Shown here one piece after another: positions 7,701-60,000 of a stretch of 64,000 bases of DNA (position 1 is its first letter; the number at the start of each line of letters is the position of its first letter). The stretch spans positions 8,528,501 through 8,592,500 of the forward strand of contig CP126192.1 in assembly GCA_030272155.1 (NCBI GenBank), given 5' to 3'. Position numbers and translations under genes: made by a program. Under the pieces are notes generated by a model. The model was not told the origin of the DNA. It did not search any database and saw nothing but the letters and a program-made list of their open reading frames with translations. This stretch comes from Tetradesmus obliquus (lineage: Eukaryota > Chlorophyta > Chlorophyceae > Sphaeropleales > Scenedesmaceae).

Positions 7701-10128
7701 TTGCACAGCTCCACATGAACTCCTCTGAATCTCACATGTGTGCCTCCTTTACACTTCTGCCTCTCACGTTCGCCACAGCCTTTACATCCACAGGAGCTGC
7801 ACATGTACAAGCAGCTGAAACACGCGCACATCTCGCTCACATCCCATGCATTTGCCGTGGCCTTCCATGCCGCCCCGCAGGAGCTGCACATGTACAAGCA
7901 GCTGAAGCACGCGCACATCGTGGGCTACATCGACGCGCGCTTCGACACCTCCACCAACACGCTGTACATATTCCTGGAGAACGTGCCCGGCGGCAGCATC
8001 GCGTCCATGCTGCAGCGCTTCGGGGGGCCTTTCCCGGAGAACGTGGCGCGCAACTACACGCGGCAGCTGCTGCTGGGGCTGGAGTACCTGCACAGCCAGC
8101 TGTGAGTCAAGGACATATGGGCAGCCGATCGGCCTGCTGCATTAGATGGAACCTCCACTTCACGAGTACCGTACATGAATTGCTGCATGCTGTACTGTGG
8201 CTCCGTGCTGCATCTCCCTCTGCGATTAGCTCTACTAGTGATTCATTCCATCTAAGATCGTGGCAGGACCCACATGTACGTATCCTCTCTCGCTAGTACA
8301 GTATCTGACACGCTGCTTGCTGCGGCTTTTCCCCTCTGCTGCAGCATCGTGCACCGCGACGTGAAGGGCGGCAACGCGCTGCTCACCACCAGCGGCATCG
8401 TGAAGCTGGCTGACTTTGGCGCAAGCAAGATCCACAAGGCCGGCGACGGCGGCAGCAGCAGCAGCGGCAGCGCCGAGGGCGGCGACGCGTGCCGCTCCGT
8501 GCTGGCGCAGAGCCTGCGCGGCAGCGCGTGCTGGATGGCGCCCGAGGTCGTGCGCGGGCAGGGCTACGGTGAGCTCATTTGATCAAGATTGTCGTATTCT
8601 CGATTAAATATATGCTTCATGGTTTGTGCAGCGCCTGCAGGATGGCTTTCGAGGTCGTGCCCGGGCAGTGCTACCGTGAGTGTGTGTGCCGCTGCTTGAA
8701 TGCAGCATGCGTGACAGAGAGCAGTCCTGCTGTTGACAGAGAGAGTTTGCATGTATGCGTTCGAGCAAAGCCCAGCCGAAGCTGTGTGGTGCGCACACAT
8801 TGGTGTGGGTGGCCCTGCCGTTGTGCGCGGGCAGGGCTGCAGTGCGCAAGGACATCATATCCTTGATTATGCTGCGCTGCAGAAGTAACAGTTACTTTTG
8901 TTACATTGGTAGACGACTCGCAGCTGGTTCAAACCAGCAAAGAAAACAGAAGGCCTCAGGCCACAACAAGACAGGGAAACACCATAAATGGTGAATTAAT
9001 GTCTGTTGGTGTGGTGCCGCAGGCCGTAAGGCGGACATCTGGTCGCTGGGCTGCACCGTGCTGGAGATGCTCAGGCCTGCCAGCATCCGACTCATCACAT
9101 GCTGCCATCAAGCTTCTTTGTGTGTGCCTCATTCTTAGCCGCAGGCTGCAAGGCGGACATCTGGTCACTGGGCTGCACCGTGCTAGAGATGCTCCATGCT
9201 GCTCCATACCTCACCCCACATACGCATGACTGACACCTGCATGCTGCGGATTCGCTTCTGTGTGTGCTGCCGCAGGCCGCAAGGCGGACATCTGGTCGCT
9301 GGGCTGCACGGTGTTGGAGATGCTCAGCGGCAAGCACCCCTGGCCCGACATCGACAACCAGTTTGCGGTCATGCTGGCCATCCACAACGCCACGCAGGGC
9401 CCGCCGCGGCCGCCGGGGCTGTCGCCACTGGCCAACGACTTCCTGGACCACTGTTTCAGGGTGAGCTGCATATACATGAACTTTCCAGTAAATTCTGTCA
9501 TGAGGCAACGCAGCTGACATGCCCGCCTTATATGCATGAGTGGCTGGGTTTGCAAGCAATGCTGCTGCCATGCCAGCTGGGGCTGTCGCCGCTGGCCAAT
9601 GACTTCCTAAACCACTGCTTCAGGGTGAGCGCGCTGCACATGTGTTTTGTTTTGTTTCGAATTGGAAATGATTCCAGAAGGCTGTTGATGCTGCCATGCC
9701 CGCTTGGACTGTCGCCGCTGGCCAATGACTTCCTGGACCACTGCTTCAGGGTGAGTACACATACTTGAGTTTGCAATTGCTTTGGTTTGCATGCGATGCC
9801 GCTATCATGCCTTTGCTGTCGCCGCTGGCCAATGTTTTCTTGGACTACTGCTTCAGGGTGAGCGGGCTGTCCCATGCATTATGGGTTCAGGTACCTGCAA
9901 CAGTGCGCCGTGCTGCTGTTTTCTTTGTCAAGCTGTACGGGCGCGGTCACTGCTGCAGGACGGCCGGCTGTGCATGCGAGCATGTGCATTTGTTTGCGGA
10001 ACAGGCGCGTGGTGCTGCCATGCCTGGCACCGCTGCCTCTGCTTGTCAGCGGAATTCCGCCATACAGCTGTCTGGCTTCGCCGTTGTTGTTAGTGAGCCG
10101 GCTGTGTCCCGTTAATATACCTTCTTTG

Positions 10129-10166
<38 letters not shown>

Positions 10167-10279
10167 AGATGAACCCCAACGACCGCAGCTCTGCGGAGCA
10201 GCTGCTGACGCATGCCTGGGTGGCGGGCCAGGGCAGCAACCCCACACGCACGCGCGCCTCGCTCAGCCAGGAAGTGTGA
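975..10279 (+). CDS. Ankyrin-repeat MAPKKK-like Ser/Thr kinase, 12 exons
   Basis: Predicted cytosolic protein kinase of the MEKK/STE11 type, about 1850 aa. Exons: 975-1138, 1233-1293, 1552-2259, 2550-3917, 4140-4331, 4564-5302, 5609-7054, 7284-7417, 7881-8101, 8345-8568, 9276-9460, 10169-10279; all phases agree. Residues 1-680 and 850-1550 are Ser/Gln/Ala/Gly-rich low complexity. Three to four ankyrin repeats lie at about 690-840 ([36 protein letters not shown]). The kinase domain, about 1552-1833, has the P-loop GEGAYG, the lysine of [15 protein letters not shown], the ADFGAS activation start, CWMAPEVV, and [20 protein letters not shown] plus WMAPEV fits MAPKKKs, which phosphorylate MAPKKs. 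The ATG at 975 follows an in-frame stop at 930. Introns around the kinase exons carry partial exon copies. The substrate is unknown. The kinase call is firm; the 5' exons are less certain. Confidence 0.85.
7794..7832 (+). repeat. Intronic partial copy of kinase exon 9 start
   Basis: After a CAG acceptor (7791-7793) the sequence repeats the first ~39 bases of the true exon at 7881, encoding [13 protein letters not shown], and then diverges. It is out of the spliced model, because using it would duplicate a kinase segment. Confidence 0.8.
8632..8690 (+). repeat. Intronic partial copy of kinase exon 10 end
   Basis: This stretch resembles the exon end at 8528-8568 plus its GTGAG donor. It encodes [11 protein letters not shown] in place of [12 protein letters not shown] third, weaker fragment lies near 8820-8845. 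Confidence 0.7.
9023..9194 (+). repeat. Two intronic copies of kinase exon 11 start
   Basis: Copies at 9023-9072 and 9145-9194 each follow a CAG acceptor and encode [15 protein letters not shown], matching the true exon start at 9276. The spacing is about 120 and 131 bases. Both diverge right after the shared ~50 bases. Confidence 0.85.
9580..9862 (+). repeat. Three intronic copies of kinase exon 11 end with donor
   Basis: Copies at about 9580-9630, 9703-9755 and 9817-9862 repeat the true exon end (9418-9466). They encode variants of [14 protein letters not shown], each followed by a GGTGAG donor. Substitutions differ between copies, so they are not sequencing duplicates. Confidence 0.85.
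10132..10168 (+). repeat. (CTG)n tract forming a splice acceptor
   Basis: About eleven CTG units end in CTGCAG directly before the last kinase exon. The tract takes the place of the polypyrimidine tract. Confidence 0.85.
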
Positions 10280-10315
10280 GCAGCAGCTGCAGCGGCGGCT
10301 GCAGCAGCAGCACCT

Positions 10316-13300
10316 GCAAGCTCCAGCAGGCTCTGCAGTCTGGCACAGTTGCCACGAGGACACCACGTGCATGTGGCAGAGCTCGTGTGCGTGCCAGCTG
10401 CCCGGTTGGTTGGCTGCGTGCTGCCAGCAGCGTTGCTTGCTGCTCCTGTGGCTGGCTTTGGTGGGTGCCAGCTGTTCTGGAGGCGCAGGCTGCAAGCTTA
10501 CGCGACGCCAGCATGCACTGCAGCCTGGCACAGTTGAGCTGTGGCTGACCTCGCCAGAGCTTCTCAGCCTTGCAGATAAGCTGCTCCCTTTGCTGGGGGT
10601 GTGCTGCTCGGAGCGCTGGTTGCTGCTCGTGTGGCTGGCGTTGTGATGTGCCAGCTGTTCTGGAGGCACTTGCTGTCGAGCTGCAACCGCTGTGCTGGCC
10701 AGCTGCAACACTTCTGTGCTGAGTTGCTGGTATGTTCGTTGCTGGCAACACTTTATTTGCCGCTGCCGGCTGCACACCACTGATCATGCGGCTCTGTCGT
10801 TTATTTCACAGCACTGACTGCACCGCAACCATCACTGTTGCCGTACTGTGGCATGGCGTGCACACGCTTGTGGCCGAGGGTATTGCTGGCTGTTGCCTGC
10901 TCATGCGCGTCTCTGTGTGCGTGTTGTGCGCATCCGTGTGTGTGTGCAGGCACGCCTGTTTCCTGCCAGCCGACTGACAGGCACCCTTTGCACTTCAGGA
11001 GGGAGAGTAGGGTTGTTGCAGTTGTAGCTTGGGCGAGGCTTTGATTATGTACAGGCTGCGGGTTAGGCGGTGGAAGCACCCCTGGGCTGCTGTTTAGTGC
11101 AGTGTGTGTGTAGGTGCATGGCATGTAGAGTTAGCAGCATCACGCCAGCACAGGCGTTGCTTGTTCTGTTGTGTTCAGTGTCAGGCTGGCACGCCTGTCT
11201 ATTGTCTAGTGGTACATAGCTTGTAGTTAGGGGCGGGTGTAGGTAGAAGGGGTGGGGAGGAGGGTGTATGCAACTTTGAGCAATGCATGGGTCATCTTTG
11301 CTGCGATACATATTGGGACGCACTGTAAAGACCTGGGTGCCGTGCCACTGTCCTTGGCTGCTTGTGGCCCGTCTGTCTGCCGACTGTATCAGCTGTTGCA
11401 TTTGTGCTGGGGGCTGCTCAAGGCACGTGTGCTGATGGCCGCACGTGTGGTGTGCACCAGCACAGTGCTTTGCTGCAGGATAGCTGCTGCAGCAAGCTGC
11501 ACATTGTGCGGATGATGCTGGTGCTAGCAACTCCAGTTACCTGTATAAGTCGTAGCACCGCTTCTGTCATTGATGCCACCAGCAGCGAATGCACTGGTAA
11601 AACGCTTGCTGTGTGAACTGCTGACCTGCTCTGGCTTCTATGTTCGGCTGCTGTGCTGAGCGCATCAGTGCTGCTGCTATAGGCCCTGGTTTGCCCTTCA
11701 CTATCTGACGCAAGCAATTTGTATAGAAGCAATCTGCGCATGGTGAACGCAAGAATTCACATGCGGTGCACCTGGCTTCAACAAGCAGGGCTGCATTGAT
11801 TGTAGGTGATGCTCCTAGTGCGCTCAGTGCTACGCAGCACACATGCTTTTATTGACTGCGGGTGGCTGATCCCGAGGTGTGCATTTGTGGCCAACTCTGT
11901 GGCGTTAGCGAATGCACTTAGGGACGTGCGCTGCAGTTGATGTATTGCGACCCATAACGCCTTGGGGTTGCGGGGTGGCGCCGGCAGCGTTGGCCGTGCA
12001 TACGTAACCCACACTGCTCGCAACACCTTGTACTACGTAGTACGTATACAAGCCAGCTGTGCCAGAGGGGCTGCTGCTAGGATTGCATGGCAAGGACAGA
12101 TATGACGGCACTGTGAGGCGTCATGTGGTTTATGAGGCTGTTGACGCGTGGTGCTTGCAGCAGCCTGCTTCGTATATTTGCAACCTGGATTTGCTGTGGC
12201 GTGGAGCTGGTGACTCATAGCAGCTGGCTTCACGAGCGCGATGGCCAGAGCACAGCACGCGCGGGTATAGCCATGCTGTTGACGGGCCAGCAGTGTTGGC
12301 GCTGGTTGCTGTCTTTTCCGTTGTTGAGGGTGCGGCTTCCCTCTGCATATCTCATTACTACCCATTAATTGTACCTGCCGCGTGATCCTGTTGATGCTTG
12401 TGTCTTCCGCGCGTGATCTCCCCCTCGCATAAGGCTTGCCCAGTCGGCACTTGGATGTTGATATGCAGGCGCGTGTTGCAGTTGGAGAAAGTTTCCAATG
12501 CTGTGCCTGCAGGGCTTGCCACCTTCGTGATGATGCACACGGTTGTGTGGCTCAGCCGCATGCTGCCTCTGATTACTTTCATTTGACCGGTGTGCCGCAC
12601 GTATTCGCAAGTTGTATCACACTCCTGCTAGTTAACCTGACAATCTGGTCATGGCATGCTATGGCCTAAACATCTCGCTTGCGGCTGCTGTGCGCCAGCA
12701 ATGGCCTGAACGTGCTTACGGGACGAAAGCTGGCCATGGCAGTGGGGTGTAGATGGCTTTACAAATTCGCATGTAGGAGTGAAGCTTACAAGCACGGGCC
12801 TGTACGCATCTGTGGGGCTGTTGTATGCATGACTGAGCTGTCATGACAACGTTTTGTAACACATAACAAGTCAACCTGACACTTGACGTGTGAGTACACA
12901 TGAGTCTGCGCATGGGTTAGAACTGCGTGTTAGGTTATCTGTTATGCACCGTGCACGCTTACGCAAATCAGCAGTTGCTGTTCGTCCTGCCGCGCCTGCG
13001 CCCAACACAACAGCTGCTTTGTGAAGAGTGCCTCCTCTGCACAGCTGTTCTGGTGTGCCAGCAAGCATGGCAGAGGCAGAGGACGCTGTGCAGCTGTTCT
13101 CTCGCAAGTCATCAGGGAAAAGGAAGAAGTCCCAGCAGGCGAACGGGGCTGCAGACGAGTCTGCACCCAAGAGGCAGCAGCAGGAGGCTGGGGCAGCAGC
13201 AGCACTGCCGGAGCGGGCGCAGGGCGAGGCCAGCACTAGTGAAAGCACAGCAGCTAGCTTCAAGGAACTAGGCGTATCAGGCTGGCTTTGTAGCGTTGTG

Positions 13301-13906
13301 CAGAGCCTCGGTATCCGTAGGCCTACGCAAGTGCAGGCGGGCTGCATCCCAGCCATTCTTGCCGGCAAAGACGTTATAGGCACAGCGCAGACCGGCAGCG
13401 GCAAGACAGCAGCGTTCGCTCTGCCGATACTTCAGCACCTGGCGAAAGACCCGTACGGCATCTTCGCTCTCGTGCTGACTCCTACCAGGTTGGTGCTGCT
13501 GTCAGGGAGGAAGAACGGGCAGCAGCGGGTCTTCCTTGTCATGCAGCTGCTCATAGGCACCCTTGATGCTTTAGTATGCGTTTTGAATTCCTTGCATGCC
13601 AGCTGGGAGTGCTGCTCCGCCATGCTTGCCAGGTCTGCTGTCAGCCAGCCCAGCCTGGCACTGGCAGTGTCAGTGTGAGTGCTGCTGCTGCTAGTGCTGC
13701 TGCTGCTATTGCTGCATGACAAGGCACAACCATTGCCTAGACCTGCTGGCAGCATGTTGAATTTTCAGTTCATGTGGTAACTCGCTTGTCTGCATGCACT
13801 GTCAACTTGTGGTCCCTTTGTCATGTGTTGCAGGGAGCTGGCGATGCAGCTTGCTGACCAGTTCAGGGCGTTTGGTGCTGGCATGAGCCTAAAGGTGTGA
13901 GCTGCA
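10316..13906. repeat. Tandem duplication copy 1 (3.59 kb)
   Basis: First copy of a direct repeat with period 3592. It starts 37 bases after the kinase stop and runs through intergenic DNA, the helicase 5' region, helicase exons 1-2 and the first bases of intron 2. All internal open frames recur with identical translations in the second copy, and I saw no difference between the copies. Apart from the helicase part, 10316-13066 holds no gene I can support. Confidence 0.95.
13067..13894 (+). pseudogene. Truncated 5' copy of the DEAD-box helicase gene
   Basis: Exons 13067-13488 and 13834-13894 are identical to exons 1 and 2 of the complete helicase gene downstream (16659-17080, 17426-17486). They encode the N-terminus, the Q motif, motif I (AQTGSGKT) and motif Ia (PTRELAMQ). 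The copy then runs straight into the second repeat unit, so helicase motifs Ib to VI are missing. It is still preceded by a full copy of the presumed promoter region. It may be transcribed, or read through into the second copy by skipping. It is either a very recent tandem duplication or an assembly artefact. Confidence 0.85.
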
Positions 13907-13907: not shown

Positions 13908-16900
13908 GCAAGCTCCAGCAGGCTCTGCAGTCTGGCACAGTTGCCACGAGGACACCACGTGCATGTGGCAGAGCTCGTGTGCGTGCCAGCTGCCCGGTTG
14001 GTTGGCTGCGTGCTGCCAGCAGCGTTGCTTGCTGCTCCTGTGGCTGGCTTTGGTGGGTGCCAGCTGTTCTGGAGGCGCAGGCTGCAAGCTTACGCGACGC
14101 CAGCATGCACTGCAGCCTGGCACAGTTGAGCTGTGGCTGACCTCGCCAGAGCTTCTCAGCCTTGCAGATAAGCTGCTCCCTTTGCTGGGGGTGTGCTGCT
14201 CGGAGCGCTGGTTGCTGCTCGTGTGGCTGGCGTTGTGATGTGCCAGCTGTTCTGGAGGCACTTGCTGTCGAGCTGCAACCGCTGTGCTGGCCAGCTGCAA
14301 CACTTCTGTGCTGAGTTGCTGGTATGTTCGTTGCTGGCAACACTTTATTTGCCGCTGCCGGCTGCACACCACTGATCATGCGGCTCTGTCGTTTATTTCA
14401 CAGCACTGACTGCACCGCAACCATCACTGTTGCCGTACTGTGGCATGGCGTGCACACGCTTGTGGCCGAGGGTATTGCTGGCTGTTGCCTGCTCATGCGC
14501 GTCTCTGTGTGCGTGTTGTGCGCATCCGTGTGTGTGTGCAGGCACGCCTGTTTCCTGCCAGCCGACTGACAGGCACCCTTTGCACTTCAGGAGGGAGAGT
14601 AGGGTTGTTGCAGTTGTAGCTTGGGCGAGGCTTTGATTATGTACAGGCTGCGGGTTAGGCGGTGGAAGCACCCCTGGGCTGCTGTTTAGTGCAGTGTGTG
14701 TGTAGGTGCATGGCATGTAGAGTTAGCAGCATCACGCCAGCACAGGCGTTGCTTGTTCTGTTGTGTTCAGTGTCAGGCTGGCACGCCTGTCTATTGTCTA
14801 GTGGTACATAGCTTGTAGTTAGGGGCGGGTGTAGGTAGAAGGGGTGGGGAGGAGGGTGTATGCAACTTTGAGCAATGCATGGGTCATCTTTGCTGCGATA
14901 CATATTGGGACGCACTGTAAAGACCTGGGTGCCGTGCCACTGTCCTTGGCTGCTTGTGGCCCGTCTGTCTGCCGACTGTATCAGCTGTTGCATTTGTGCT
15001 GGGGGCTGCTCAAGGCACGTGTGCTGATGGCCGCACGTGTGGTGTGCACCAGCACAGTGCTTTGCTGCAGGATAGCTGCTGCAGCAAGCTGCACATTGTG
15101 CGGATGATGCTGGTGCTAGCAACTCCAGTTACCTGTATAAGTCGTAGCACCGCTTCTGTCATTGATGCCACCAGCAGCGAATGCACTGGTAAAACGCTTG
15201 CTGTGTGAACTGCTGACCTGCTCTGGCTTCTATGTTCGGCTGCTGTGCTGAGCGCATCAGTGCTGCTGCTATAGGCCCTGGTTTGCCCTTCACTATCTGA
15301 CGCAAGCAATTTGTATAGAAGCAATCTGCGCATGGTGAACGCAAGAATTCACATGCGGTGCACCTGGCTTCAACAAGCAGGGCTGCATTGATTGTAGGTG
15401 ATGCTCCTAGTGCGCTCAGTGCTACGCAGCACACATGCTTTTATTGACTGCGGGTGGCTGATCCCGAGGTGTGCATTTGTGGCCAACTCTGTGGCGTTAG
15501 CGAATGCACTTAGGGACGTGCGCTGCAGTTGATGTATTGCGACCCATAACGCCTTGGGGTTGCGGGGTGGCGCCGGCAGCGTTGGCCGTGCATACGTAAC
15601 CCACACTGCTCGCAACACCTTGTACTACGTAGTACGTATACAAGCCAGCTGTGCCAGAGGGGCTGCTGCTAGGATTGCATGGCAAGGACAGATATGACGG
15701 CACTGTGAGGCGTCATGTGGTTTATGAGGCTGTTGACGCGTGGTGCTTGCAGCAGCCTGCTTCGTATATTTGCAACCTGGATTTGCTGTGGCGTGGAGCT
15801 GGTGACTCATAGCAGCTGGCTTCACGAGCGCGATGGCCAGAGCACAGCACGCGCGGGTATAGCCATGCTGTTGACGGGCCAGCAGTGTTGGCGCTGGTTG
15901 CTGTCTTTTCCGTTGTTGAGGGTGCGGCTTCCCTCTGCATATCTCATTACTACCCATTAATTGTACCTGCCGCGTGATCCTGTTGATGCTTGTGTCTTCC
16001 GCGCGTGATCTCCCCCTCGCATAAGGCTTGCCCAGTCGGCACTTGGATGTTGATATGCAGGCGCGTGTTGCAGTTGGAGAAAGTTTCCAATGCTGTGCCT
16101 GCAGGGCTTGCCACCTTCGTGATGATGCACACGGTTGTGTGGCTCAGCCGCATGCTGCCTCTGATTACTTTCATTTGACCGGTGTGCCGCACGTATTCGC
16201 AAGTTGTATCACACTCCTGCTAGTTAACCTGACAATCTGGTCATGGCATGCTATGGCCTAAACATCTCGCTTGCGGCTGCTGTGCGCCAGCAATGGCCTG
16301 AACGTGCTTACGGGACGAAAGCTGGCCATGGCAGTGGGGTGTAGATGGCTTTACAAATTCGCATGTAGGAGTGAAGCTTACAAGCACGGGCCTGTACGCA
16401 TCTGTGGGGCTGTTGTATGCATGACTGAGCTGTCATGACAACGTTTTGTAACACATAACAAGTCAACCTGACACTTGACGTGTGAGTACACATGAGTCTG
16501 CGCATGGGTTAGAACTGCGTGTTAGGTTATCTGTTATGCACCGTGCACGCTTACGCAAATCAGCAGTTGCTGTTCGTCCTGCCGCGCCTGCGCCCAACAC
16601 AACAGCTGCTTTGTGAAGAGTGCCTCCTCTGCACAGCTGTTCTGGTGTGCCAGCAAGCATGGCAGAGGCAGAGGACGCTGTGCAGCTGTTCTCTCGCAAG
16701 TCATCAGGGAAAAGGAAGAAGTCCCAGCAGGCGAACGGGGCTGCAGACGAGTCTGCACCCAAGAGGCAGCAGCAGGAGGCTGGGGCAGCAGCAGCACTGC
16801 CGGAGCGGGCGCAGGGCGAGGCCAGCACTAGTGAAAGCACAGCAGCTAGCTTCAAGGAACTAGGCGTATCAGGCTGGCTTTGTAGCGTTGTGCAGAGCCT

Positions 16901-17498
16901 CGGTATCCGTAGGCCTACGCAAGTGCAGGCGGGCTGCATCCCAGCCATTCTTGCCGGCAAAGACGTTATAGGCACAGCGCAGACCGGCAGCGGCAAGACA
17001 GCAGCGTTCGCTCTGCCGATACTTCAGCACCTGGCGAAAGACCCGTACGGCATCTTCGCTCTCGTGCTGACTCCTACCAGGTTGGTGCTGCTGTCAGGGA
17101 GGAAGAACGGGCAGCAGCGGGTCTTCCTTGTCATGCAGCTGCTCATAGGCACCCTTGATGCTTTAGTATGCGTTTTGAATTCCTTGCATGCCAGCTGGGA
17201 GTGCTGCTCCGCCATGCTTGCCAGGTCTGCTGTCAGCCAGCCCAGCCTGGCACTGGCAGTGTCAGTGTGAGTGCTGCTGCTGCTAGTGCTGCTGCTGCTA
17301 TTGCTGCATGACAAGGCACAACCATTGCCTAGACCTGCTGGCAGCATGTTGAATTTTCAGTTCATGTGGTAACTCGCTTGTCTGCATGCACTGTCAACTT
17401 GTGGTCCCTTTGTCATGTGTTGCAGGGAGCTGGCGATGCAGCTTGCTGACCAGTTCAGGGCGTTTGGTGCTGGCATGAGCCTAAAGGTGTGAGCTGCA
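13908..17498. repeat. Tandem duplication copy 2 (3.59 kb)
   Basis: Second copy of the 3592-period direct repeat. It contains the 5' end of the complete helicase gene. The left and right breakpoints of the unit share the short word CTGCA. A few extra bases (AGCA) lie at the internal junction near 13903-13910, which fits microhomology-mediated joining. Confidence 0.95.
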
Positions 17499-18874
17499 GC
17501 TGCCTGCCTGCCTAATTGCAACCAACACAGGCTGCTGCTGTCAGCAGCGTTCAGCAGCAGCAGCAGCAGCAGCAGCAGTTGATCAGTGCCACAGTCACAG
17601 CAGTATGGTGGCTGTGCAGCATGCGCCGCTGCCTCATACAACATCCACTGACAGCGTCAACAGCAGCTGGCATCAGCACACTCCAGCCGTGCACACCTCA
17701 TGCTGCACTGCACAGCAACTGGGCTGTTGCTCGGGCTTTGTGCTCAAGTATAGCATCACCACACATTGCTGCGCATCTCATAATTGATATGTTTCATTGA
17801 ATCCCACAGGATGCCGTGATCATTGGTGGCGTGGAGCAGCAGCAGCAGGCGCAGGCGCTGGCACGGCGGCCACACGTGGTGGTGGCCACGCCCGGGCGGC
17901 TGGCAGCGCTGGTGCAGTCTGACAGCTCACTGGGAGCAGGTGAGCCCAGCAGGCAGGGTGCTGCAGTAGTGCTGGTTGACAGCAGTGCAAATCTGATAGA
18001 GAGGGAAGCAGCATGGCAGCAGCGCCATGCGGCGCAGTTCTGTGCAGTAGCAGTGATGTCTGATAGCAGTGCACGCCTGGGCGGCTGGCGGCACTGGTGC
18101 AGTCAGACAGCTCACTAGGGGCAGGTGAGTGCAGGCAGTGGGTTGCGGGAAGAGGAAAAGCAGATCGACAGCAGTGTTGTACGATGGCATTGCAGATTGG
18201 CAGCAGCGTTGCAAGAAGAGGCAGGCTCCTGCAGGCGCATCGTGCCAGTGCGCAAGCACACAGAGTGGTACTTGCCGAGCGGCAGCCGCAGACATGGCAG
18301 CATGCACGCTGCGCCCCTGCACCCACACGCTGCTGAGTAAATGGGAGCTGATGAGCCCAGCAGGCGTTGCCCTGGCTGCAGCAGTGCTGCTTTTACAGCT
18401 GCGCCGTGTAGTAGCATTGCTGGCAGTGCAGAGCGCTGCAGCAGTGCTGCTAGAGACATGGCAGCTTGGCAGCAGCATTGCATGGCCGCAGTGCTGTAAA
18501 GGGAGAGTTTTCATTTCAAAACATGGAAGCAGGGAGAAAGGCCATCAAACGGCGCTGCCAATACACAGCACCGCAGTCTATCAGCAGTGCTGTGAATTAG
18601 CAGCGCTGTATGATAGCATTTTGAGCACTAGCAGCAGCTTTGCCAGAAGAGGCAGGCGGCTGTTCCTCAGTGAAGCAGCTGCAGGCGCAGCCGCAGCCCT
18701 GCTGCTACTGGGCAAGCTAATAGAGTGATGTTGCAACACCAGCAGTTGAGGCAGCGTGCACACTGCGCTGCTGCACCCACACAGCTGCTGCAGCTGCTGC
18801 TGCAGCAACCGTCTGCCGCCGAACGAACTAATGTCTAACAGCCATTGTGCCTCTGTCGCCGTCGCCGTTGCCGC

Positions 18875-18907: not shown

Positions 18908-19149
18908 AGGCTTTTCCCGAGTGGCCTACCTGGTCATGGATGAGGCGGATTGCCTGCTGGACCCTTCTTTTGAGCAGACCTGCGCGTGCTGCTGCCGCTG
19001 CTGCTGCTGCAGGAACCGCCTGCCCCGTAGCACTGTCGTTCTACAGTAATGTGTGCCGCTGCTGCTGCTGCAGGATTCAGCCGTGTGGCCTACCTGGTTA
19101 TGGATGAGGCCGACCGCCTGCTGGACCCCTCCTTTCTCTCGCTCATGCG

Positions 19150-19183
<34 letters not shown>

Positions 19184-22100
19184 GCTGCCGCTGCAGGTTT
19201 CAGCCGGGTGGCATACCTAGTGATGGACGAGGCGGATCGCCTGCTGGACCCCTCCTTTGAGGCCGACCTGCGCGTGCTGCTGCCGCTGCTGCCTGAGCCC
19301 AGCCGCCGGCAGAGCCTGCTGTTCAGCGCGACACTGACTCCTAGTCTGGTCAAGCTGCAGGCGGCCAGCTTGGCTGATGCTCACGTGTTCCAGGTGGGTG
19401 GCGGCGTGTTGGAGCACAGTCTTTGGCAGTTGTTTGGGGCTTGGGGAAAGGGGTGACGTTTCAGCCTGGCTTCAAAGGATGCCGATTCAAGCCTTGACAG
19501 GCCAGACTGGTGGCTATGTGTGGTTGACATTGAGGGCAGAGTACAAAGGAGGTTTCGGCCGCCGGCAGAGCCTGCTGTTCAGTGCCACACTGACGCCCAG
19601 CCTGGTCAAGCTGCAGGCGGCCAGCCTGGCTGATGCACATGTGTTCCAGGTGGGCTGATATTGCAGTGCACGATCTTTGCATGGCAGGTGCAGCGCTGGC
19701 ACAGAGAAACAGCATTCTGGCATCTTCATTTATTCCTCGCAGCCGGCCCTTGCTGACGCATGCACGTGCTGCTGCTGCTGCTGCTGCTGCTGCCGCGCAG
19801 GCGTACGAAGGCTTGCGAACAGCTGACCGCCTGGATGAGCAGTACGTGTTCATCCCACAGAAGGTCAAGGACGTGTACCTGCACCACCTGCTGCTGCACA
19901 GCCTGGCCTCACTGCAGCAGCAGCAGCAGCAGCCGGGAGCACCAGCAGCAGCAGCAGCAGCAGCAGATGCGGAGGCCGCGGGCTTCAAGCGAGTGCGCAG
20001 CGCCATCATTTTTGTGTCCACCTGCAAGGGCTGCCACATGCTGAGCCTGCTGCTGCGGGAGCTGGGGCTGCCCGCTGCTGCACTGCATTCAGGTGAGCAG
20101 CGGCGGATGCTTTTCTGCTGGATTATTAGTTGTCAGTTTCATCACATGTGTGTGGGGCCTGGTTCTGTGTGGCTGTGCTGGTGCGGTGTATCTATTGCCA
20201 GTGGCGGGGCCCCGCTGAAATACGACTTGAAGCAAGTGGGCTGCTTAGCGGCGCCCCAAGCAAGCTCTAGCTGCCACATGCTGAGCCTGCTGCTGCGGGA
20301 GCTGGGGCTGCCTGCTGCTGCGCTGCATTTGGGTGAGCAGCGGCGGATGCTTGCTTGTTGGGTGGATAGGTTGTTGTCTGCATGTGTGTGGGATGGTTCT
20401 GTCTGGCTGCGTTGGTGCGGTGTATCTATTGACATTGGCGGGGCCCCGCTAAGGGGGGTGACATACGACTTGAGTCAAGTGGGCTGCTCAGTGGCGCCAT
20501 AAGCAAGCTCTAGCTGCCACATGCTGAGCCTGCTGCTGCGGGAGCTGGGGCTGCCCGCTGCTGCGCTGCATTCAGGTGAGCAGCTTTGCTTTGAACACCA
20601 ACTTGAATGTATATGAGCACTAGCATGATGTTGGCTGTGTGTGGCAGGGCCAGGTGGGACATGCTGGCACTGGTGCAGCAAATCCGGGGGAGTTGCCCCT
20701 GCGGGAGCTGGGGCTGCCTGCTGTTGCGCTACATTCAAGTGAGCAGCTGTGTTTTGAAGGGACGAATATATACAAGTAGTGCATGATGTTGGCTGTGTGT
20801 GGCAGGGTGAAGTGGTTGATGCTGGCATGGTTGCAGCAGTCCCTGGGGAGCTGCCTGCGGGAGCTGGGGCTGCCCGCTGCTGCGCTGCATTCAGGTGAGC
20901 AGCTGACAGATAGTTTCATGCTGTGTTGCTGTTGGCGATGTGTGGCAGGGCGGGGTGGGTGACGGGGTGGGGCAGGCAGGGCACTGGTACAGCATTCCCC
21001 TCAAGCATGCCTGCCTCGCATTTCACCGCAACATGGTTTCCTCCGCATGCAGGTCTCAAAAAAGCGGCTCGCTGCGCTGGGCAGCTTCAAGAGCGAGCAC
21101 ATCTGCTCTTGTGCATGCTGCCTCACGGCGTGCCAAAATGCGTGCTGTTGCGCCAGCAGTCAAGTCTCAGAAGCAGCGGCTCGCTGCGCTGGGCAGCTTC
21201 AAGAGCGAGCACGGCTGCTGTCCTTGCATGCCGGCGCTGCCTTGCATCTGGCTGCAGCTTTTGTTACCTCGCGCAGGCAAGGCTGTGGAGCAGCGACTGA
21301 GCAGGCCGGCCAGCCTTTGGTAATGGACGCATGCCCGATTGATCAAGCCGTCCACCATCCAATCACACGGTTGCAATGCGTTGTATTGTCCTGTGCGCAG
21401 GCAAATCTCAGGTTGTATTGTCCTGTGCGCAGGCAAATCTCAGGTTGTATTGTCCTGTGCGCAGGCAAATCTCAGGTTGTATTGTCCTGTGCGCAGGCAA
21501 ATCTCAGGTTGTATTGTCCTGTGCGCAGGCAAATCTCAGAAGCAGCGGCTGGCTGCGCTGGGCAGCTTCAAGAGCGAGCATGTGCCACTGCTGCTGGCCA
21601 CTGACGTGGTGGCAAGGGGGCTGGACATCCCTAGCGTGGACCTGGTGGTGAACTATGACCTGCCGCTGCTGGCAGCGGACTACGTACACAGGTGTAGTGC
21701 TCTTGCTTTGTCATGTTGTTCGTTGTATGTAGCTCGCTGTTTGCATCCCCAGCGTGGACTTTGTTGTCAATGACCTGCCCCTGGTGGCAGCGGACTACGT
21801 GCATAGGTAACTTTTCTATGCAAGCAGGGGGTGTGCTATCCCTTTTTAAAGAGAAAGTTACGTGTGGAGTTTTGTGTTTCCTGTGTCTAGCTCAAACCTG
21901 TGTTTGGTGGTCAACTATGAGCAAGGGGGCTGGACATTCCCAGCATGGACTTGGTTGTCAGTTTTGACCTGCCGCTGCTGGCAGCGGACTACGTGCACAG
22001 GTGAGCGTTGCTTGCTTTGGCTGCAGAGTTCATCGGAGTGCGGGCCTGATGTTGCATGCATGCTGGCTTTCACGTCGCTGCTGTCAGCTGTGCTAGCTGA

Positions 22101-22585
22101 TACAGCCCTGCGTGCACACGCTGCTGCTGCTGCTGCGTGCTGCAGGGTGGGCCGTACCGCGCGCGCTGGCCGTGCCGGCTGGGCCGTGTCCATCAGCAGT
22201 CAGTATGTGCTGTTAGCTGCCACACACACCGACCTGCTACTGCTGCTGCTGCTGCTGCTGCTGCAGGGTGGGTCGTACTGCGCGTGCTGGCCGTGCCGGC
22301 TGGGCGGTGTCCTTCATCACACAATACGATGTGGAGCTGGTGTCTGCAATTGAAGGGCACATAGGCCACAAGCTAGGCGAGCTAGAAATGGATGAGGCAG
22401 CTGTACTGAAGGGCATTACAAGGGTTTACAAGGCCAAGAAAGCAGCAGCACTGGCAGCAATGAATGAGGAAGATAAGCAGGCAGTGGGCATGGGTAGGAG
22501 TGCAGGCAGCAGCAGGCACAAGCGCAGCAACGGTGCTGGTGGAGGCGGCGGGAAGCAGAGGGAAGCTGGCAGCAGCAAGGAGTGA
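16659..22585 (+). CDS. DEAD-box ATP-dependent RNA helicase, DDX49/Dbp8 type, 7 exons
   Basis: Predicted nucleolar RNA helicase of 527 aa, resembling DDX49/Dbp8 (RH36 in plants), which acts in 18S rRNA processing. Exons: 16659-17080, 17426-17486, 17810-17939, 19197-19393, 19801-20092, 21529-21691, 22267-22585; phases agree throughout. Motifs in order: Q motif ([16 protein letters not shown]), I AQTGSGKT, Ia PTRELAMQ, Ib [62 protein letters not shown]. The C-terminal tail is Lys/Arg/Gly-rich. The ATG at 16659 follows an in-frame stop near 16617. A Gln/Ala insertion sits before motif IV. Almost every intron from intron 3 on contains repeated partial exon edges. The subfamily call rests on the C-terminal pattern [13 protein letters not shown] and overall size. 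Family certain, DDX49 assignment probable. Confidence 0.92.
18070..18126 (+). repeat. Intronic copy of helicase exon 3 end
   Basis: Repeats 17890-17945: [10 protein letters not shown] followed by a GGTGAG donor, with substitutions. It lies about 180 bases downstream of the original, in the same orientation. Confidence 0.8.
18870..19140 (+). repeat. Two extra copies of helicase exon 4 start (DEAD motif)
   Basis: Two decoy copies, starting about 18910 and 19072, lie upstream of the true exon (19197). Each follows a CTG-rich tract ending in CAG and encodes [11 protein letters not shown] with Cys or Arg next, then LLDPSF. They differ from each other and from the real exon. Including either would duplicate motif II. 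Confidence 0.85.
19149..19196 (+). repeat. (CTG)n tract at helicase exon 4 acceptor
   Basis: About fourteen CTG/CCG units run into the CAG acceptor used by the exon that encodes the DEAD motif. Similar tracts precede the decoy copies and the exons at 19801 and 22267. Confidence 0.85.
19560..19658 (+). repeat. Intronic copy of helicase exon 4 end
   Basis: A ~95-base near-copy of 19303-19398. It encodes [19 protein letters not shown] and continues to the exon end and a GTGGG donor. This is one of the longest partial exon copies in the window. Confidence 0.85.
20271..20900 (+). repeat. Four intronic copies of helicase exon 5 end
   Basis: Copies of the true exon end (20031-20098) begin near 20271, 20514, 20695 and 20850. 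Each encodes all or part of [20 protein letters not shown], followed by a GTGAG donor. The first two are full-length copies spaced about 242 bases apart; the later two are shorter and more diverged. Confidence 0.85.
21050..21215 (+). repeat. Two intronic copies of helicase exon 6 start
   Basis: Segments at about 21050-21100 and 21163-21212 encode [12 protein letters not shown] with a preceding AG. They match the true exon start at 21529 but lack motif V. Confidence 0.8.
21380..21539 (+). repeat. Five tandem 32-bp units, each a splice acceptor
   Basis: A head-to-tail array with units starting at 21380, 21412, 21444, 21476 and 21508. Each unit reads through TTGTATTGTCCTGTGCGCAG into GCAAATCTCAG, that is, the last 20 intron bases plus the first 11 exon bases of helicase exon 6. 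Only the last unit continues into the full exon. Confidence 0.95.
21740..22010 (+). repeat. Two intronic copies of helicase exon 6 end
   Basis: Copies near 21747-21810 and 21920-22005 encode diverged versions of the exon end (ending AADYVHR), each followed by a GGT donor-like site. Confidence 0.8.
22139..22205 (+). repeat. Intronic copy of helicase exon 7 start (motif VI)
   Basis: After a CTG tract and CAG, the sequence encodes [15 protein letters not shown] and then diverges. The true exon starts at 22267 with the same residues and a second CTG tract. Confidence 0.85.
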
Positions 22586-23426: not shown

Positions 23427-23590
23427 TATGGTCACCGAGATGTCCAGCTGCATGTCCAGGCATGTCCAGTTGCATGGTGTGCAACTGGACATGCCATGTG
23501 GCATGTCCAGTGTGAGACTGGACATGGCCATGTCCAGCATGCTGCTGGACATCGAGTAGGTGACTGGACACGATACTGGACACGGCAATT
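23427..23590. repeat. Left subterminal TGTCCAG array
   Basis: About ten TGTCCAG/CTGGACA words in both orientations, some forming palindromes. The outer part (from CTATGGTCACCGAGATGTCC) is the inverted copy of 26119-26162 at the other end. Clustered subterminal motifs are typical transposase-binding regions. Confidence 0.75.
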
Positions 23591-26030
23591 GGACTTGCAT
23601 AAACTGCCTATTACCGTTATAACAAACGTATTTGATGCAGTAAACAAGTGTTCGCGGCAGGACAGCAATGTCGAGGTGCTTGGGTTGGCGCCCTCGACCC
23701 CCTGGTGCCAAGTCACTGCAGCTGCAACTGCCAAGTGGGCAAGTGACCCATGGGCTGTAACACAATCAGCATGTAGCTGCTGCAATACAAACAGAATCTG
23801 GCAGCTGCTGCAATCACAACAACATCAACAGCACGCAGCTGCTGCTTGACAGCAAAGGCACCCAGCTGCTGCAAGTACAACATAAGCAGTGAGGACACCA
23901 CGCGGAACAGCTGCCAAGAACTGCATTGTCAAGATTGCGTCTCTACCACTTGTACAGATGATGCCTATGCCAACTGCATTCACTGTGCATCCTGTTGCAG
24001 GCAGCGCCAGCACAGCAATGCACCAGCTGCCACTACCGCTGCATGCCACCATCTGCCAACGAAAACATACAAGTTCCAGCAGCTGCTGATCGCGCACTGG
24101 TGTCTGCGTAGCCGGCATCAACTGCGAGTTGGCAGGCTGCCACTGCCTGCATTGATCACAAGTGTAGCGGTTGTTTCAAAGAACACCCCTGCAGCAGTGC
24201 AGCAGAAACAGAGCAGCTGCACTCACATTTGCATGCTGCAGCGTAGGATGTGGCACTTGTTGAGGTTGGCGTTATCTCAATCAAGGTCTGGGCCAACCGG
24301 CGTTTGCGCGTTGATTGGCGCCCGCCACGCACCACTACATGCAACACTACAGAGCAGCAGCATCTGCGCCAACATAATCGCTGCCACTGAATCGCACATA
24401 TGAGGCAGACTGCTTGCAATGCCACACCGCTCAAGCTCACCAGGAAGTGCATCAGCCATGCCACGCTGCCGGAAAGTCGGCCCCTGTGTCTCTATAGGGA
24501 AGGTCTGCGCACCAACAGAGGTGTCATGTCAACATATCACAATGGTGGTCTCCAAGCAGGCTGTCTGCTGCTGCATTAGATACAGTGGCGCCATGCTGAC
24601 TGCAATCAAGTAGGACCCATGCACGCAGGAAGTAAAAGCTGGATGGGTGGCGCGCACACCACATGGAGGGCATTGCGAGCAAGTATGGTGTGTGTGAAGT
24701 GCGTCGCAAGCACGTTCCACATTATGCAACTGCTGGCCTGCTGGGCATGCTGTCTGCTGCGTGCGTATGTTCATGCACGCGTTGCCAAGAATAATCACGA
24801 CAAGCCCTGCAGCAAGCGGCATGCTCTTGATTGGGGAGAGCTGTCACTTCACAGCAGCAGCAGCAGCAGTAGCAGCAGCTGTAACCTGCTACCTGTTAGG
24901 TTCTAACGTTTTTCGTTATTCTGACCTACCTGTGATGCTGGGAGACGGGCAGCTGACAGGAGCCTGCACACAGCAGCAGCAGCAGCAGCAACGCAGGTGA
25001 CACACAACTGCACCTGTGGACAACCTGCATGCACCCAGCCTCTACAGCTGACATAGCACGGCTGATGCTGCTGCACTGCTGCAACTGATCTTGATCTGGT
25101 AATGGTGTGATCATTCCTGCGACAGTACTGCTGCACTGCTGCAACTGTAGCTGCTGCTGCTGCTGCTGCTGTGAGCTGGGCGCCCTAGCAGCTGCAGGGC
25201 TGGGTGCTGTCGTTTCAGCCGCTGCTGATCTGGGTAAGAGTCGCTCACCATGTCATCAAAGTATCAAGATAAGCAGTAGCAGCTCCATGCGCTTTCTACA
25301 GCCTTGAAATCCTGCATTATCAACCTTGCAGCTGCATAGTGCTTCAAGGACTGCTGCTGCTCAATGAGCAGGCGTCTGCAGCCTCACAAACGCCCAATAA
25401 CCGCATTGATCTGTTGTCATTCATTACGCTTTCAGCGATGGTCTCTGCCAGTGGACACGAGCTTGCAGTCTGTTTCAGCCCCGTGCACCATATGCAACGC
25501 AGCAGCAGTGCGCGACACAGGTGCGATCGCTGTAATGCTTCAGCAGTAATCATATTGATCATCGTTTGCAGCTGTTTGCTTACCAGTAGACGAACAGTTC
25601 ACGAGCGTATGCCAACTGACCATTTTGTATTTTAACAAGTGACACACCTTGCAGCAGCGCGCAATGGGGCTATACGGGCCATTAAACTTACTGTAATAGA
25701 ACTAAACGATGTGTTTGGAAAGGCTGCTGCTTCGGCAGCGTGGGAAAGTCGTGCAATGCTGTAGTGACATGCTGATCTTCGCCTTGAGGCGCTGTCGTGT
25801 CATAAGACACCATAAATGCTGCTTTATATGATGATTATTTGCACTATCGCACGCTTTGGCGTGAATTTTAAGCCGGTGTTGACGTGATATCGACAAACCC
25901 TACAGCAAGCCCATGGGCTGGCCAGCTGACGTGCTGGCTGTTCAGCGACACAGTATAAGCGGCATACATGCAACAACACCTACTTGCGGCGTTTTAGCCG
26001 GGTATCGTGCCGTACAACGCATCAGCAGCA

Positions 26031-26162
26031 GCACATGTCCAGTTGCAGGCAGACTGCCAGTCCAGTGGACCTGCAACTGGACATGCAAACCCACCAACTG
26101 GACACGATTTGGTGCCACTGGACATGCCTGGACATGCAGCTGGACATCTCGGTGACCATAGT
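26031..26162. repeat. Right subterminal TGTCCAG array
   Basis: About six TGTCCAG/CTGGACA words. The outer ~45 bases mirror the left array in inverted orientation. Confidence 0.75.
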
Positions 26163-36943: not shown

Positions 36944-36949
36944 ATATTA
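36941..36949. repeat. LINE target-site duplication, 5' side
   Basis: CATATATTA, identical to 26431-26439. The minus-strand ATG of the LINE frame (36941-36943) lies within it. Confidence 0.85.
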
Positions 36950-40964: not shown

Positions 40965-40995
<31 letters not shown>

Positions 40996-45650: not shown

Positions 45651-45811
45651 TCACAGCGGCGGGTCGCGCCTGCTGCGGCGCTTGCGCACCACCTTGGCTG
45701 CGGGTGCGGGTGGCACGTCTGCTGCCGTGGACAGCATGTGCAGCTGGTTGCCGTTGAGGCCCAGCCCAAAGTTGGCGTAGCCACTGCCGATGTACACCCT
45801 GCGAGTGAGGC

Positions 45812-45864
<53 letters not shown>

Positions 45865-45972
45865 GCAGCAGCGGGCAGTTGATGTGTTAGGCTTATGCTG
45901 CAGGCTGGTTGCCGTTGAGGCCCAGCCCAAAGTTGGCGTAGCCACTGCCGATGTACACCCTGCGAGTGAGGC

Positions 45973-46025
<53 letters not shown>

Positions 46026-46127
46026 GGCAGTTGATGTGTTAGGCATATGCTGCAGGCTGGTTGCCTTTTGAAGCCTAGCCCAAAGTTGGCATAGCCGCTG
46101 CCGATGTACACCCTGCGAGTTGACACG

Positions 46128-46173
<46 letters not shown>

Positions 46174-47301
46174 GTAAGGGTTGCTCATGTGCATGATGCA
46201 GCACCTGTGGGCTTGAGCCTGAATGTCATAGCATGTTGCTGGCAGCGGCACAGTCATAGGTTGCTGTCAAGATGCTTGTTATTAGATGCTTGCGGTGCTG
46301 CCGCTTGCTCTGGCGCAAATATCAGAACACGCGTATGGTCACAATGCTACACGTGCAGATTTGTTGTGCACCGTTAGTACACCTGCACGCTGCGCTGCTG
46401 CTGCTGCAGCAGCTGCTGCTGCTATTGCTGCTGCTGCTGCTGCTGCTGCTGCTGTGCCTCACCTGCCATCAACCACCGCAGGTCCACATCCGGTGGTCAT
46501 GCCAGTCGCAAACACATTCAGCAGCTTGCCGGTTGCCGCATTCAGCGTGAACAGCGTGCCCTGCAGATCCATGCTTGCATAAAACACCACGCCATTCGCC
46601 ACAGTCATCGGCGCCTGACTTCTCGCCTCCTTTGGTGGATTCACACCAGCCTGCACATCTCCCCAGTGCGGTGTAGGGTTCGCAAACGTCCATACAATGG
46701 TGCCATCGTACGCATCAACAGCAGCAGCGATGCCACCTTGTGTTGTAGCTGGGATGGCGTTCGAGCCGAGCTTGTTGGGTACTGCCTTCATGCTGGACAG
46801 GTTGATGGGTACTGAGAGGTAGTTGTTGTTTGCCACGTAGATCCGTGAGGTGTCGGCAGCACTGCCCCACTGCAGGCCGCCTACGGTGCCGCCTGGGCCA
46901 ACTGGAAGGGACCAGTGCACCGCACCCTGCAAGTAAGAAACGATGAGGGGTATTGCAGCGGAAAGCACACTCAGGATAGCAGAGGTAAGCCATGCCATGT
47001 GCCACCAGGGCCCACCGGCAGTGACCAGTGCACGGCACCCTACAGGAGGAGGTATTGCAGTGGCGAGTTTTGACAGCAGCAGGCAGCATGTGCAGTGGGG
47101 TAAATCACGTGATTCGCCGCACTGCACATGCTGCCTGCTGCTGGCAAAAGCCGCCACTGCAACACCGCCTCCTGTGCACACCTCCTCCTGTGCACAGTGG
47201 ATCCTGAGCAAGGCCGTCACCACTGTCATTGAATTCGGGCAGGCAAGCAAAGGAGCAGGAATCAGGCAAGCCAGCCACTGACCAGCCAGCACGCAGAGTC
47301 T

Positions 47302-56632: not shown

Positions 56633-56665
<33 letters not shown>

Positions 56666-57049: not shown

Positions 57050-57088
<39 letters not shown>

Positions 57089-60000
57089 GGCTGACGCTTG
57101 CTTGATTTGCTTGCTTTCTGGCCTGCTCCTGCTGCAGCTGCAGCAGCAGCAGCAGCAGCGTCCTTGCTAGCCTTGCTGCTCTTGGGCTTCTTCTGCCTGC
57201 ACATACAGCAGAACACGCACAGCAGCAGCCACCACATCTACACTACAGCCTCAGCTTGCACACCCTCGCCTGTGCAGCATCCTGCAGCATCAGGCAGCAC
57301 CAGGACAGCCAAGCAGGGCACACAGCATGGCACTCTCTCTTACGCATCCTATCACAGCAGCACACAGCGCCATCGGCAGATAGTGACACACTTGTAACAA
57401 AGCCGGCCGCGTACCTGCTGCGGCTGCCGCCCTTGGCTCTTGCCTTGGCCTCAGCAGTACCTGCCCCAAAAGGCTGCATGGCCTGCAGCAGCTCTAGCCA
57501 GCTCAGCTGCTGCCCACAACACACGCAGCGCCCACCCACAGGCATGCTGCTGCTGCTGCTGCTGCTGCTGCCATAGGCCACACCCTGCTGCTGCTGCTGC
57601 TGCTGCTGGTCCAGCAGTGCTGCTGCAAGGCAGTCGATGTGGAAGGAGGCAGAGCAGCTGCTGCAGCTGAGCACGAAGCGCTCGATGGCGCGGCTGCAGC
57701 AGCCGCAGCGGCTGCCTGGCGCCCTGGCCGCCTGCAGCACAACATGCACAATAAATCTTTCTTGTAACCACTAGGCAAACATGCGCAGGCGCAGCATGCA
57801 CAGCACTTTGTTTGAACGACCAGCAGAGGGGCCAAGGTGGCAGCTGCAGCGGCTGCCTGGCGGCCTGCAGCACCACCAGGCACAAATGCACAGGCGCAGC
57901 ATGCACAGACACAAAATTTGAGATGACCGGAGAGGCACCAAGGTGGCCGCCGCAGCGGCTGCCTGGCGCCCTGGCGGCCTCCAGTAAGGCAGCACAACAG
58001 CACGGCAAGCAGAGTAGAACCTGTGAAATCAAATGAGTCCGCAACGCTGCGCACGCACACCGAGGATGCGCGGGGTCAGCTGCCCAGCTAGTTGGTGCAA
58101 CTGTAACAAACAGCAAGCTACCTGAACAGCAGAAGTGCAAGCAGCGCGACAAGCACATCAGCTGCTGGCAGCACGTCAGTGCGAGCGCAGCAGGTAGGCA
58201 TGCAGGCATCCACAGCCAACTGTGAAACACCATACACTAACCCTGCACCCGGCTTACCTTGGGCGCCGCTGCATCAGCTGCCAACAGGCTTGCTGCCTGC
58301 CTGCTGCTGCGCGATTTGCCACGTGCAGCCGCTTTGCTCTCATCACTGCTGCTGCTGCTGCTGCCGGATGAGAGGACCTGCACGCCGCTGCCGCTGTTGC
58401 TGCTGCCTCGCTGCTGCTGCTGCTGCTGCAAGCGCTGTAGCCTTTGCCACAGCGCCTCATCCTCTTCTTCTTCTCCACTGCTGTCACCTTCTTCAAGCTG
58501 CTGCTGCTGCTGCTGCTCCTCATCCTGCTGCTGCTCGTCATCGTCTTCATCTGCTGTGTCAGCTGCTGTGTCCTCATCTGTGTCCCCTTGTTCCTCATTG
58601 TCATTGTCATTGTCATTTATGCTGGCTGGCAACGCCTCCATGGGTGCCACCAGTACAGGCATGTGCGGAGGAGGGGCAGGCGCACCTGCAGCAGCAGCAG
58701 CAGCAGCAGCAGCATCAGCAGCCGGGCAGGCGACTGACGACTGCGCGTAGCAGGCTGGCGCATAAAGTATATCCAGCCCGCTGCCACAAACACAGAAACC
58801 GCATCAGACACATGCTGCTGCTGCCGCTGCTGCTGCCGCTGGTGCTACTGCTGCTGCTGCCCACCCTTGGGCACCACGCTGTGCTGCTGCCACATGAGCG
58901 GCATTACTGCTGCTGCTACGTCAGCGGCATTGCTGCCCCTGCTGCTGCTGCCGCTGCTGCCGCTCACCCTTTGGCAGCGTGCTGTGCTGCTGCGCCAGGA
59001 ACTGCAGTGTGAGCGGGTAGTAGCGCCAGGGGGAGGCGCACAGCAGGCCCAGCAGCAGCCGGATCTGCGAGGGAATGTAGGGGTCAGGCAGTTGCAGCAG
59101 GCAGTTGCAGCAGGCGGTTCAGCAAGCATCATTCAAGAGGCAGCTGGTGGTGCACAGCAGGCCCAGCAGCAGCCGGATCTGCAGCAGCAGCAGCAGCAGT
59201 AGCAGGGGCCAGAAGCAGGCAGCTGCGGCAGCCGGCTGGTGGTGTTGCGAATCGGCAGGGCACAGCCACAGCAGCGCAAGCCAGCTGTGTGTGTGTTGAG
59301 GACAACCAGCATGCACGGCGTGGCTGCTACAATGGGTGGACCCTCATCACGTGCATGTCAGCTGAAGTGGCAATGGCACGCCATGCTACGGCAGCAGCAG
59401 CAGCGGTGCCCACCTTGCCAGCCACGCCTGTGCGCTGGTGTGCCTTCAGCTGCCCGTACACCAGCCGCGCCACCTTGGACTTGGTGGGGTGCTGCCACGC
59501 CCACTCAAACTGCAGCGCCTGCACCTGCAGCAGGACGAAGGGGCAGAACACTTGAGCTGTAATAGCACAAGCTGCTGCTGCTGGTGGGGTGCTGCCACGC
59601 CAACTCAAACTGCAGCGCTTGCACCTGCAGCAGGACGAAGGGGCAGAACACTTGAGCTGTGATAGCACAAGCTGCTGCTGCTGGTGGGGTGCTGCCACGC
59701 CCACTCAAACTGCAGCGCCTGCACCTGCATGCGGCAACACACGATGGCAGCAGTGCTCAGCAGTAGCCACATAAGCTGCTGGTGCTGCTGCTGCTGGTGG
59801 GGTGCTGCCACGCCCACTCAAACTGCAGTGCCTGCACCTGCAGCACACAGAACATCACAGCGGCATTGATAAGCTGTAACGCCATGCTGCCACACCACTC
59901 AAACTGCAGCGCCTGCACCTGCACGGAGTACCAGCACATGTGTGCGGGACATATAAGCTGTAATAGCACAAGCTGCTGCTGCTGCTTGAATTGTTCTGCA

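Follow-up and report, generated by a model that had tools for sequence, protein, structure and literature searches.

The introns of several genes in a stretch of Tetradesmus obliquus DNA carry partial copies of the exons beside them, which raises the question of how such copies arose and why they were kept. The stretch (C2:8528501-8592500, 64,000 nucleotides, hereafter the window) belongs to an assembly of 104.7 Mb in 17 contigs. The initial annotation described the copies, here called echoes, in four genes named kinase, helicase, PQQ and SLX1. Each echo was said to combine one end of an exon with its CAG acceptor or GTGAG-type donor, always in direct orientation, on the same side as the original and usually 110-240 bases away. 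It proposed slippage at CAG/CTG tracts or R-loop repair as a possible cause and splicing decoys as a possible role. We read 284 kb, namely the window and 220 kb elsewhere (200 kb of contig C1 and 20 kb of contig C11). The echoes are a genuine and widespread peculiarity of this genome, beyond the four genes. At roughly one fifth of the sampled exon edges, the first or last few dozen bases of the exon recurred in the adjoining intron together with the splice site. For their origin we propose, with about even confidence, recurrent tandem duplications that straddled splice junctions, were tolerated and accumulated.

Local self-comparison was performed on each sample, and pairs scoring at least 45 bits were retained. 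One order-2 resampled sequence per sample served as the control. Direct pairs numbered 308 and inverted pairs 18, compared with 0 in the control. The counts were 85 direct and 5 inverted in the window, 185 and 10 in the 200 kb of C1, and 38 and 3 in the 20 kb of C11, with none in any control, so that the claimed direct orientation was borne out. The clusters of direct repeats, including spacers, covered 46,901 of the 284,000 bp. By coding character, 201 of the 308 pairs had one exon-like copy, 76 had none, 18 were unclear and 13 had two. Two of the 201 lay near sequence ends and were dropped. Among the remaining pairs, 105 had a donor-type echo downstream, 87 had an acceptor-type echo upstream and 7 were on the wrong side. 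The copy was on the expected side in 192 of the 199 classified pairs, as had been claimed. The commonest 50-bp bin of spacing was 100-149 bp (95/308), and 201 of 308 pairs fell at 100-299 bp, consistent with the claimed spacing.

Exon edges and centres were compared using 40-bp queries from internal exons of at least 150 bp, predicted by a hidden Markov model (HMM) gene finder; simple-repeat queries were dropped. Left edges recurred upstream in 23/128 cases and downstream in 2/128. Right edges recurred downstream in 32/128 and upstream in 1/128. Exon centres recurred in just 1/124 and 3/124, and reverse-complement controls gave 0-1. Intron flanks 8-48 bp off the junction recurred on their own side in 7/116 and 8/129. 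These results agreed with the statement that exon centres are not repeated, and showed that the echoes are not ordinary tandem exon duplications. The initial annotation had named two outcomes that would speak against it, equal recurrence of centres and edges and a restriction to four genes; neither was found in the 284 kb. Pfam hits, which did not depend on our gene models, agreed with the pattern when nested hits were sorted by eye and non-nested partial overlaps were excluded. Seven smaller hits matched the left part of an exon hit and all lay upstream (two on C16, three on C2, two on C13); the three on C2 lie in one open frame together with the exon hit and could be repeats within coding sequence. 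One hit matched the right part and lay downstream (C10). Three hits were ambiguous (one on C10, two on C15), and a reversed arrangement occurred in none.

The curated set consisted of the kinase and the helicase only, whose exons were fixed manually to read as one open protein. The kinase model covers exons from 7000 to 10279, and the gene start lies further upstream. From 7000 on, these exons agreed with those of the annotated kinase of the same contig, P0121 (OEZ86_001224, Tetradesmus obliquus). The helicase exons were 16659-17080, 17426-17486, 17810-17939, 19197-19393, 19801-20092, 21529-21691 and 22267-22585. The modelled helicase is equal in length to T. obliquus helicase P0001 (527 amino acids), and its counterpart in a second T. 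obliquus assembly (OEZ85) is 98% identical in protein. Both gene names stood, with clear Pfam matches to a kinase and a DEAD helicase. In the case of the PQQ gene, two exons matched PQQ_2 below the cut-off (E 9e-5 and 1.5e-5). The SLX1 label was weak, with one exon matching PHD above the cut-off and SLX1_C below it (E 9e-4), and another exon unmatched.

A curated junction was counted as echo-bearing at a local score of at least 44. Partial exon copies with the described splice sites were present at 11 of 22 junctions, with 20 echoes in total. Their similarity to the exon dropped to background 40-110 bp inside the exon. Introns with echoes were longer than those without (407-1436 against 229-345 bp; 7 against 4 introns, p 0.006). 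Gene models beyond these two were HMM predictions. The gene finder calls echoes as exons, and its labels served for screening. Its frames may be wrong, which would raise pN/pS, the ratio of nonsynonymous (N) to synonymous (S) differences per site, and its splice matrices were trained partly on echoes. For the four genes the initial annotation had counted roughly 20 affected junctions and over 35 copies; the automatic list held 31 junction entries within the window. Junction entries over-count arrays, as a single array can yield several, and an array's highest-scoring echo may not be the one closest to the exon. The features of the window are as follows, with differences between exon and echo where counted.

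7881..8101, +, kinase exon, third in the partial hand list; hand model, used by annotated P0121
7794..7832, +, acceptor-side echo of kinase exon 7881-8101 (N 0, S 1)
8345..8568, +, kinase exon; hand model
8628..8674, +, donor-side echo of kinase exon 8345-8568 (N 5, S 2)
9023..9088, +, acceptor-side echo A of kinase exon 9276-9460
9145..9194, +, acceptor-side echo B of kinase exon 9276-9460
9276..9460, +, kinase exon; hand model
9576..9857, +, three donor-side echoes of kinase exon 9276-9460 (9576-9624, 9700-9750, 9815-9857)
17810..17939, +, helicase exon 3; hand model
18072..18124, +, donor-side echo of helicase exon 3 (N 0, S 6)
18917..19170, +, two acceptor-side echoes of helicase exon 4 (18917-19004, 19076-19170)
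19197..19393, +, helicase exon 4; hand model
19558..19649, +, donor-side echo of helicase exon 4 (N 0, S 8)
19801..20092, +, helicase exon 5; hand model
20270..20894, +, four donor-side echoes of helicase exon 5, partly full tandem units (20270-20329, 20513-20575, 20699-20737, 20850-20894)
21054..21211, +, two acceptor-side echoes of helicase exon 6 (21054-21099, 21161-21211)
21380..21539, +, exact array of five 32-bp units, each spanning the helicase exon 6 acceptor (21 bp of intron end and 11 bp of exon start)
21529..21691, +, helicase exon 6; hand model
21744..22000, +, two donor-side echoes of helicase exon 6 (21744-21806, 21921-22000)
22146..22198, +, acceptor-side echo of helicase exon 7
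22267..22585, +, helicase exon 7; hand model
45739..46172, -, PQQ-like gene, tandem array of about 160 bp x 2.8; by eye, each unit holds a CTG tract, an acceptor and an exon start
46886..47044, -, PQQ-like gene, acceptor-side exon edge and its echo, spacing 113 (N 0, S 7)
59482..59984, -, SLX1/PHD-like gene, array of about 100 bp x 3.5 with acceptor-type pairs

Two further observations concern these genes. An exact tandem duplication of 3592 bp (3591 matching bases; 10316-13906 and 13908-17498) extends from downstream of the kinase to helicase intron 2, and the first two helicase exons are therefore present twice. Either the event is very young or the second copy was created in assembly. The window is very rich in CAG/CTG tracts, which often immediately precede acceptors and are a possible source of slippage.

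Under the proposed origin, small tandem duplications with a period of about 90-250 bp would arise genome-wide. A duplication within an exon would break the protein and would presumably be purged. In the case of a duplication across a junction, an extra exon edge and splice site would be left in the intron, which splicing could ignore, and the copy would survive. Each survivor would lengthen its intron and may in this way contribute to intron growth. The intron part would decay on both copies, with numerous indels, whereas selection would preserve the exon side of one of them. Because of this difference, only the exon-edge echo would stay recognisable. Selection alone could yield the edge bias without a junction-seeking mechanism, since a within-exon copy alters the protein and a junction-crossing copy need not.

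Part of the data supported this origin directly. Full-unit tandem arrays were seen among the echoes, and the far flank was homologous in 55 junction pairs. Tandem duplication is also seen in the exact 32-bp array at the helicase exon 6 acceptor and, unless it is an assembly duplicate, in the exact 3592-bp repeat. When flank homology was calibrated against unrelated flanks (99th and 95th percentiles), it exceeded the 99th percentile in 53 of 195 exon-echo pairs and at 34 of 110 junction entries, and the 95th at 47 of 110. In the 36 pairs with strong flank homology (z score > 10), divergence was 0.045 at N sites, 0.136 at S sites and 0.111 in the flank. This agreed roughly with a neutral echo beside a constrained exon, S being somewhat high. 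The claim of short tandem duplication across junctions was upheld in part, by the entries with flank homology and the one exact junction array. Among single pairs at least 90% identical, the gap was at most 30 bp in 1 of 27, so they were mostly non-adjacent. In the curated genes, 11 junction families and 2 purely intronic families were counted by eye. Random placement would give about 31% junction-crossing units there, and 11:2 against an assumed share of 35% gave p 3e-4. This excess is biased by the slower decay, better survival and better detectability of junction copies. The description of the duplications as centred on splice junctions was in line with the 11:2 count, but may reflect such a filter and not the mechanism. 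The echoes work in part like internal tandem duplication with relaxed introns, flank homology being found at one third to two fifths of junction entries.

Several results weighed against this origin. Over 139 junction entries, ungapped identity was 0.83-0.89 across intron bases 1-5; it fell to 0.47-0.49 across bases 6-10 and to 0.24-0.42 further into the intron. Core-only pairs, even at 90% identity or more, were at background beyond about +7 and -6. Exon identity and flank score were uncorrelated (Spearman -0.08). Of the 18 pairs in which the exon part had diverged by less than 3%, 11 had no flank homology. This loss of the flank beside near-identical echoes counts against neutral tandem decay, which predicts the opposite. 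The differences were also strongly synonymous. The 20 curated echoes differed at 31 of 821 N and 85 of 304 S sites (pN/pS 0.13, p 2e-11), and the best echo of each of the 11 junctions at 14/484 and 48/173 (0.10, p 1e-8); echoes within one array are not independent, and neutral decay is expected to give at least 0.5. Finally, pyrimidine content before echo acceptors without flank homology was 0.609, close to that of real acceptors (0.623) and above that of random intronic CAG (0.505).

Other figures described the divergence further. In the automatic set (94 of 139 entries usable), pN/pS was 0.30 overall, 0.12 at 90% identity or more and 0.59 below 80%. Changes private to the echoes in arrays were nearer to neutral (N 207, S 148), and frame-breaking indels built up in older echoes. 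Together these indicated that the older echoes are not maintained as coding sequence. The synonymous excess fitted S = s0 + 2N, with s0 arithmetically at 0.08-0.11 in three identity classes. These figures would fit a start at about 10% synonymous divergence followed by neutral decay. A diverged-allele template or a period of use could yield such synonymous-biased differences. The synonymous gradient along the echo was weak, although its bootstrap intervals excluded zero (+0.15 with distance from the interior end, -0.13 from the junction). Median splice scores of echoes and real sites were 5.4 and 5.9 for donors and 6.4 and 6.9 for acceptors, a comparison that is partly circular because the matrix was trained on echo-containing predicted exons. 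The mechanism is partly ordinary, and the surplus consists of kept splice signals and synonymous-biased differences. Since flank loss, intact polypyrimidine tracts and the synonymous excess are unexplained by tandem duplication alone, we add that many echoes may have been born from a diverged allele through misaligned repair, or may have been used for some time. It is conceivable, though less likely than not, that T. obliquus genes carry second exon ends with working splice signals that diverge from the first like coding sequence, owing to continued use or to repeated diverged-allele joins at splice junctions that the introns have recorded.

The second of these explanations could also replace tandem duplication for echoes without flank homology. 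Repair or unequal exchange would have joined the exon edge and native intron of one allele to those of another, or of hybrid genomes. Core-only acceptor pairs at least 85% identical differed at 87 of 316 S and 22 of 977 N sites, like orthologous genes, and the fit of the synonymous excess given above suits such joins. Both copies have acceptor tracts that appear functional in type, yet are unrelated. The second assembly, with its helicase 98% identical in protein, also fits. However, some echoes with almost no synonymous change still lacked flank homology, and donor pairs were less one-sided (S 90/497, N 87/1549). One echo, the donor echo of helicase exon 4, was searched for in the 104.7-Mb genome at the DNA level, and 19540-19660 matched only itself and its own exon, giving no second copy. 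Very many such joins would be needed, and we consider this explanation fairly unlikely.

It is unlikely, judged from the sequence, that the echoes are working parts, that is, alternative exon ends or splicing decoys under selection. The low pN/pS, the splice scores near those of real sites (partly circular), the intact polypyrimidine tract and the end of homology where the splice consensus ends would all be expected of such parts. The spacing was a multiple of three in 59 of 139 entries (other remainders 41 and 39), and 17 of the 59 were open through the gap. However, no general route to the same protein was found. A matching site at one offset was present at 30 of 60 acceptor entries against 23 of 60 with swapped roles, and at 29 of 79 donor entries against 32 of 79. 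By the same counts, equal-offset splicing that restores the mRNA, as in intron gain by AGGT tandem duplication, was not found. The frame-breaking indels of older echoes and the nearly neutral private changes in arrays also spoke against function. As annotated, P0121 omits the echoes of the kinase, even the in-frame one.

Copying of an exon edge and splice site through RNA or a splicing intermediate would end at the consensus by mechanism, and core-only pairs of 90% identity or more, in which homology stops sharply near +7 and -6, are consistent with it. We regard it as very unlikely, as the copies lie mostly 100-300 bp from their source and nearly always on one side, and echo acceptors follow full polypyrimidine tracts, unlike a random insertion site. 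An assembly artefact from two merged haplotypes could make synonymous-only pairs with two native introns, but is highly improbable, as two haplotypes could produce neither arrays of at least three graded copies nor a decay series, the contigs examined have lengths of 5-11 Mb and the 284 kb contained no N.

Other candidates were rejected. Neutral tandem decay alone roughly fitted the strong-flank pairs and failed for the rest. Gene conversion between exon and echo would, by reasoning, push pN/pS towards 1, and the observed values were 0.13 (curated) and 0.30 (automatic). Core-only insertion at random intron sites was contradicted by the polypyrimidine tracts. In the case of mini-exon or shifted-intron use of echoes, the acceptor signal seen against shifted controls nearly vanished against role-swapped controls, and a crude test of mini-exon use at alignment ends was negative. 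A test of length modulo three gave 11/4/1 for acceptors (remainders 0/1/2, strictest threshold) and 11/23/11 for donors; it counted arrays repeatedly and was not used.

Comparison with known systems placed the echoes near internal duplication. Tandem exon duplication, including mutually exclusive exons, also produces direct local repeats of exon sequence, but exon centres are not repeated in T. obliquus. Gao and Lynch reportedly linked internal gene duplication to intron creation, with segments within genes duplicated, junctions included. The T. obliquus copies differ in being edges only, mostly diverged except for the exon edge and splice signals. In a potato gene, one duplication across an intron-exon boundary is described as having made an intron (PMC4974935). 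As here, the duplication placed a former exon segment and splice signals in an intron. The potato case as described there was a single intron-making event, whereas T. obliquus had 110-139 junction entries in 284 kb (arrays multiply counted) and no evidence of new introns. Introners, as described in PMC9860276, share a lineage-wide effect on introns, but the sequence between the copies was not seen to form a repeated family in the 284 kb. Gaps between copies matched elsewhere in 18 of 104 cases, and among the matches listed 32 of 40 came from one CAG-rich gap. No account of genome-wide echoes in Tetradesmus was found in titles and abstract openings from searches of an open-licence library.

The echoes may offer a visible route for intron growth. 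According to PMC5966456, introns average 462 bp in T. obliquus, whereas the averages in three Sphaeropleales relatives are 230-302 bp. The echoes also supply numerous natural cases in which two splice sites of similar signal compete, so that the choice made by the spliceosome is testable. They will mislead gene finders, because our own HMM called 10 of 13 helicase echoes as exon.

Between the genes, an uninterrupted open frame of 10,056 bp (26891-36946, minus strand) is probably a mobile element. Two similar stretches in inverted orientation, noted by eye near 23.43 and 26.15 kb (23430-26160), suggest insertion ends. A head-to-tail array of about 120-bp units was located at 40517-41472, where self-alignments at multiples of the spacing were 73-76% identical.

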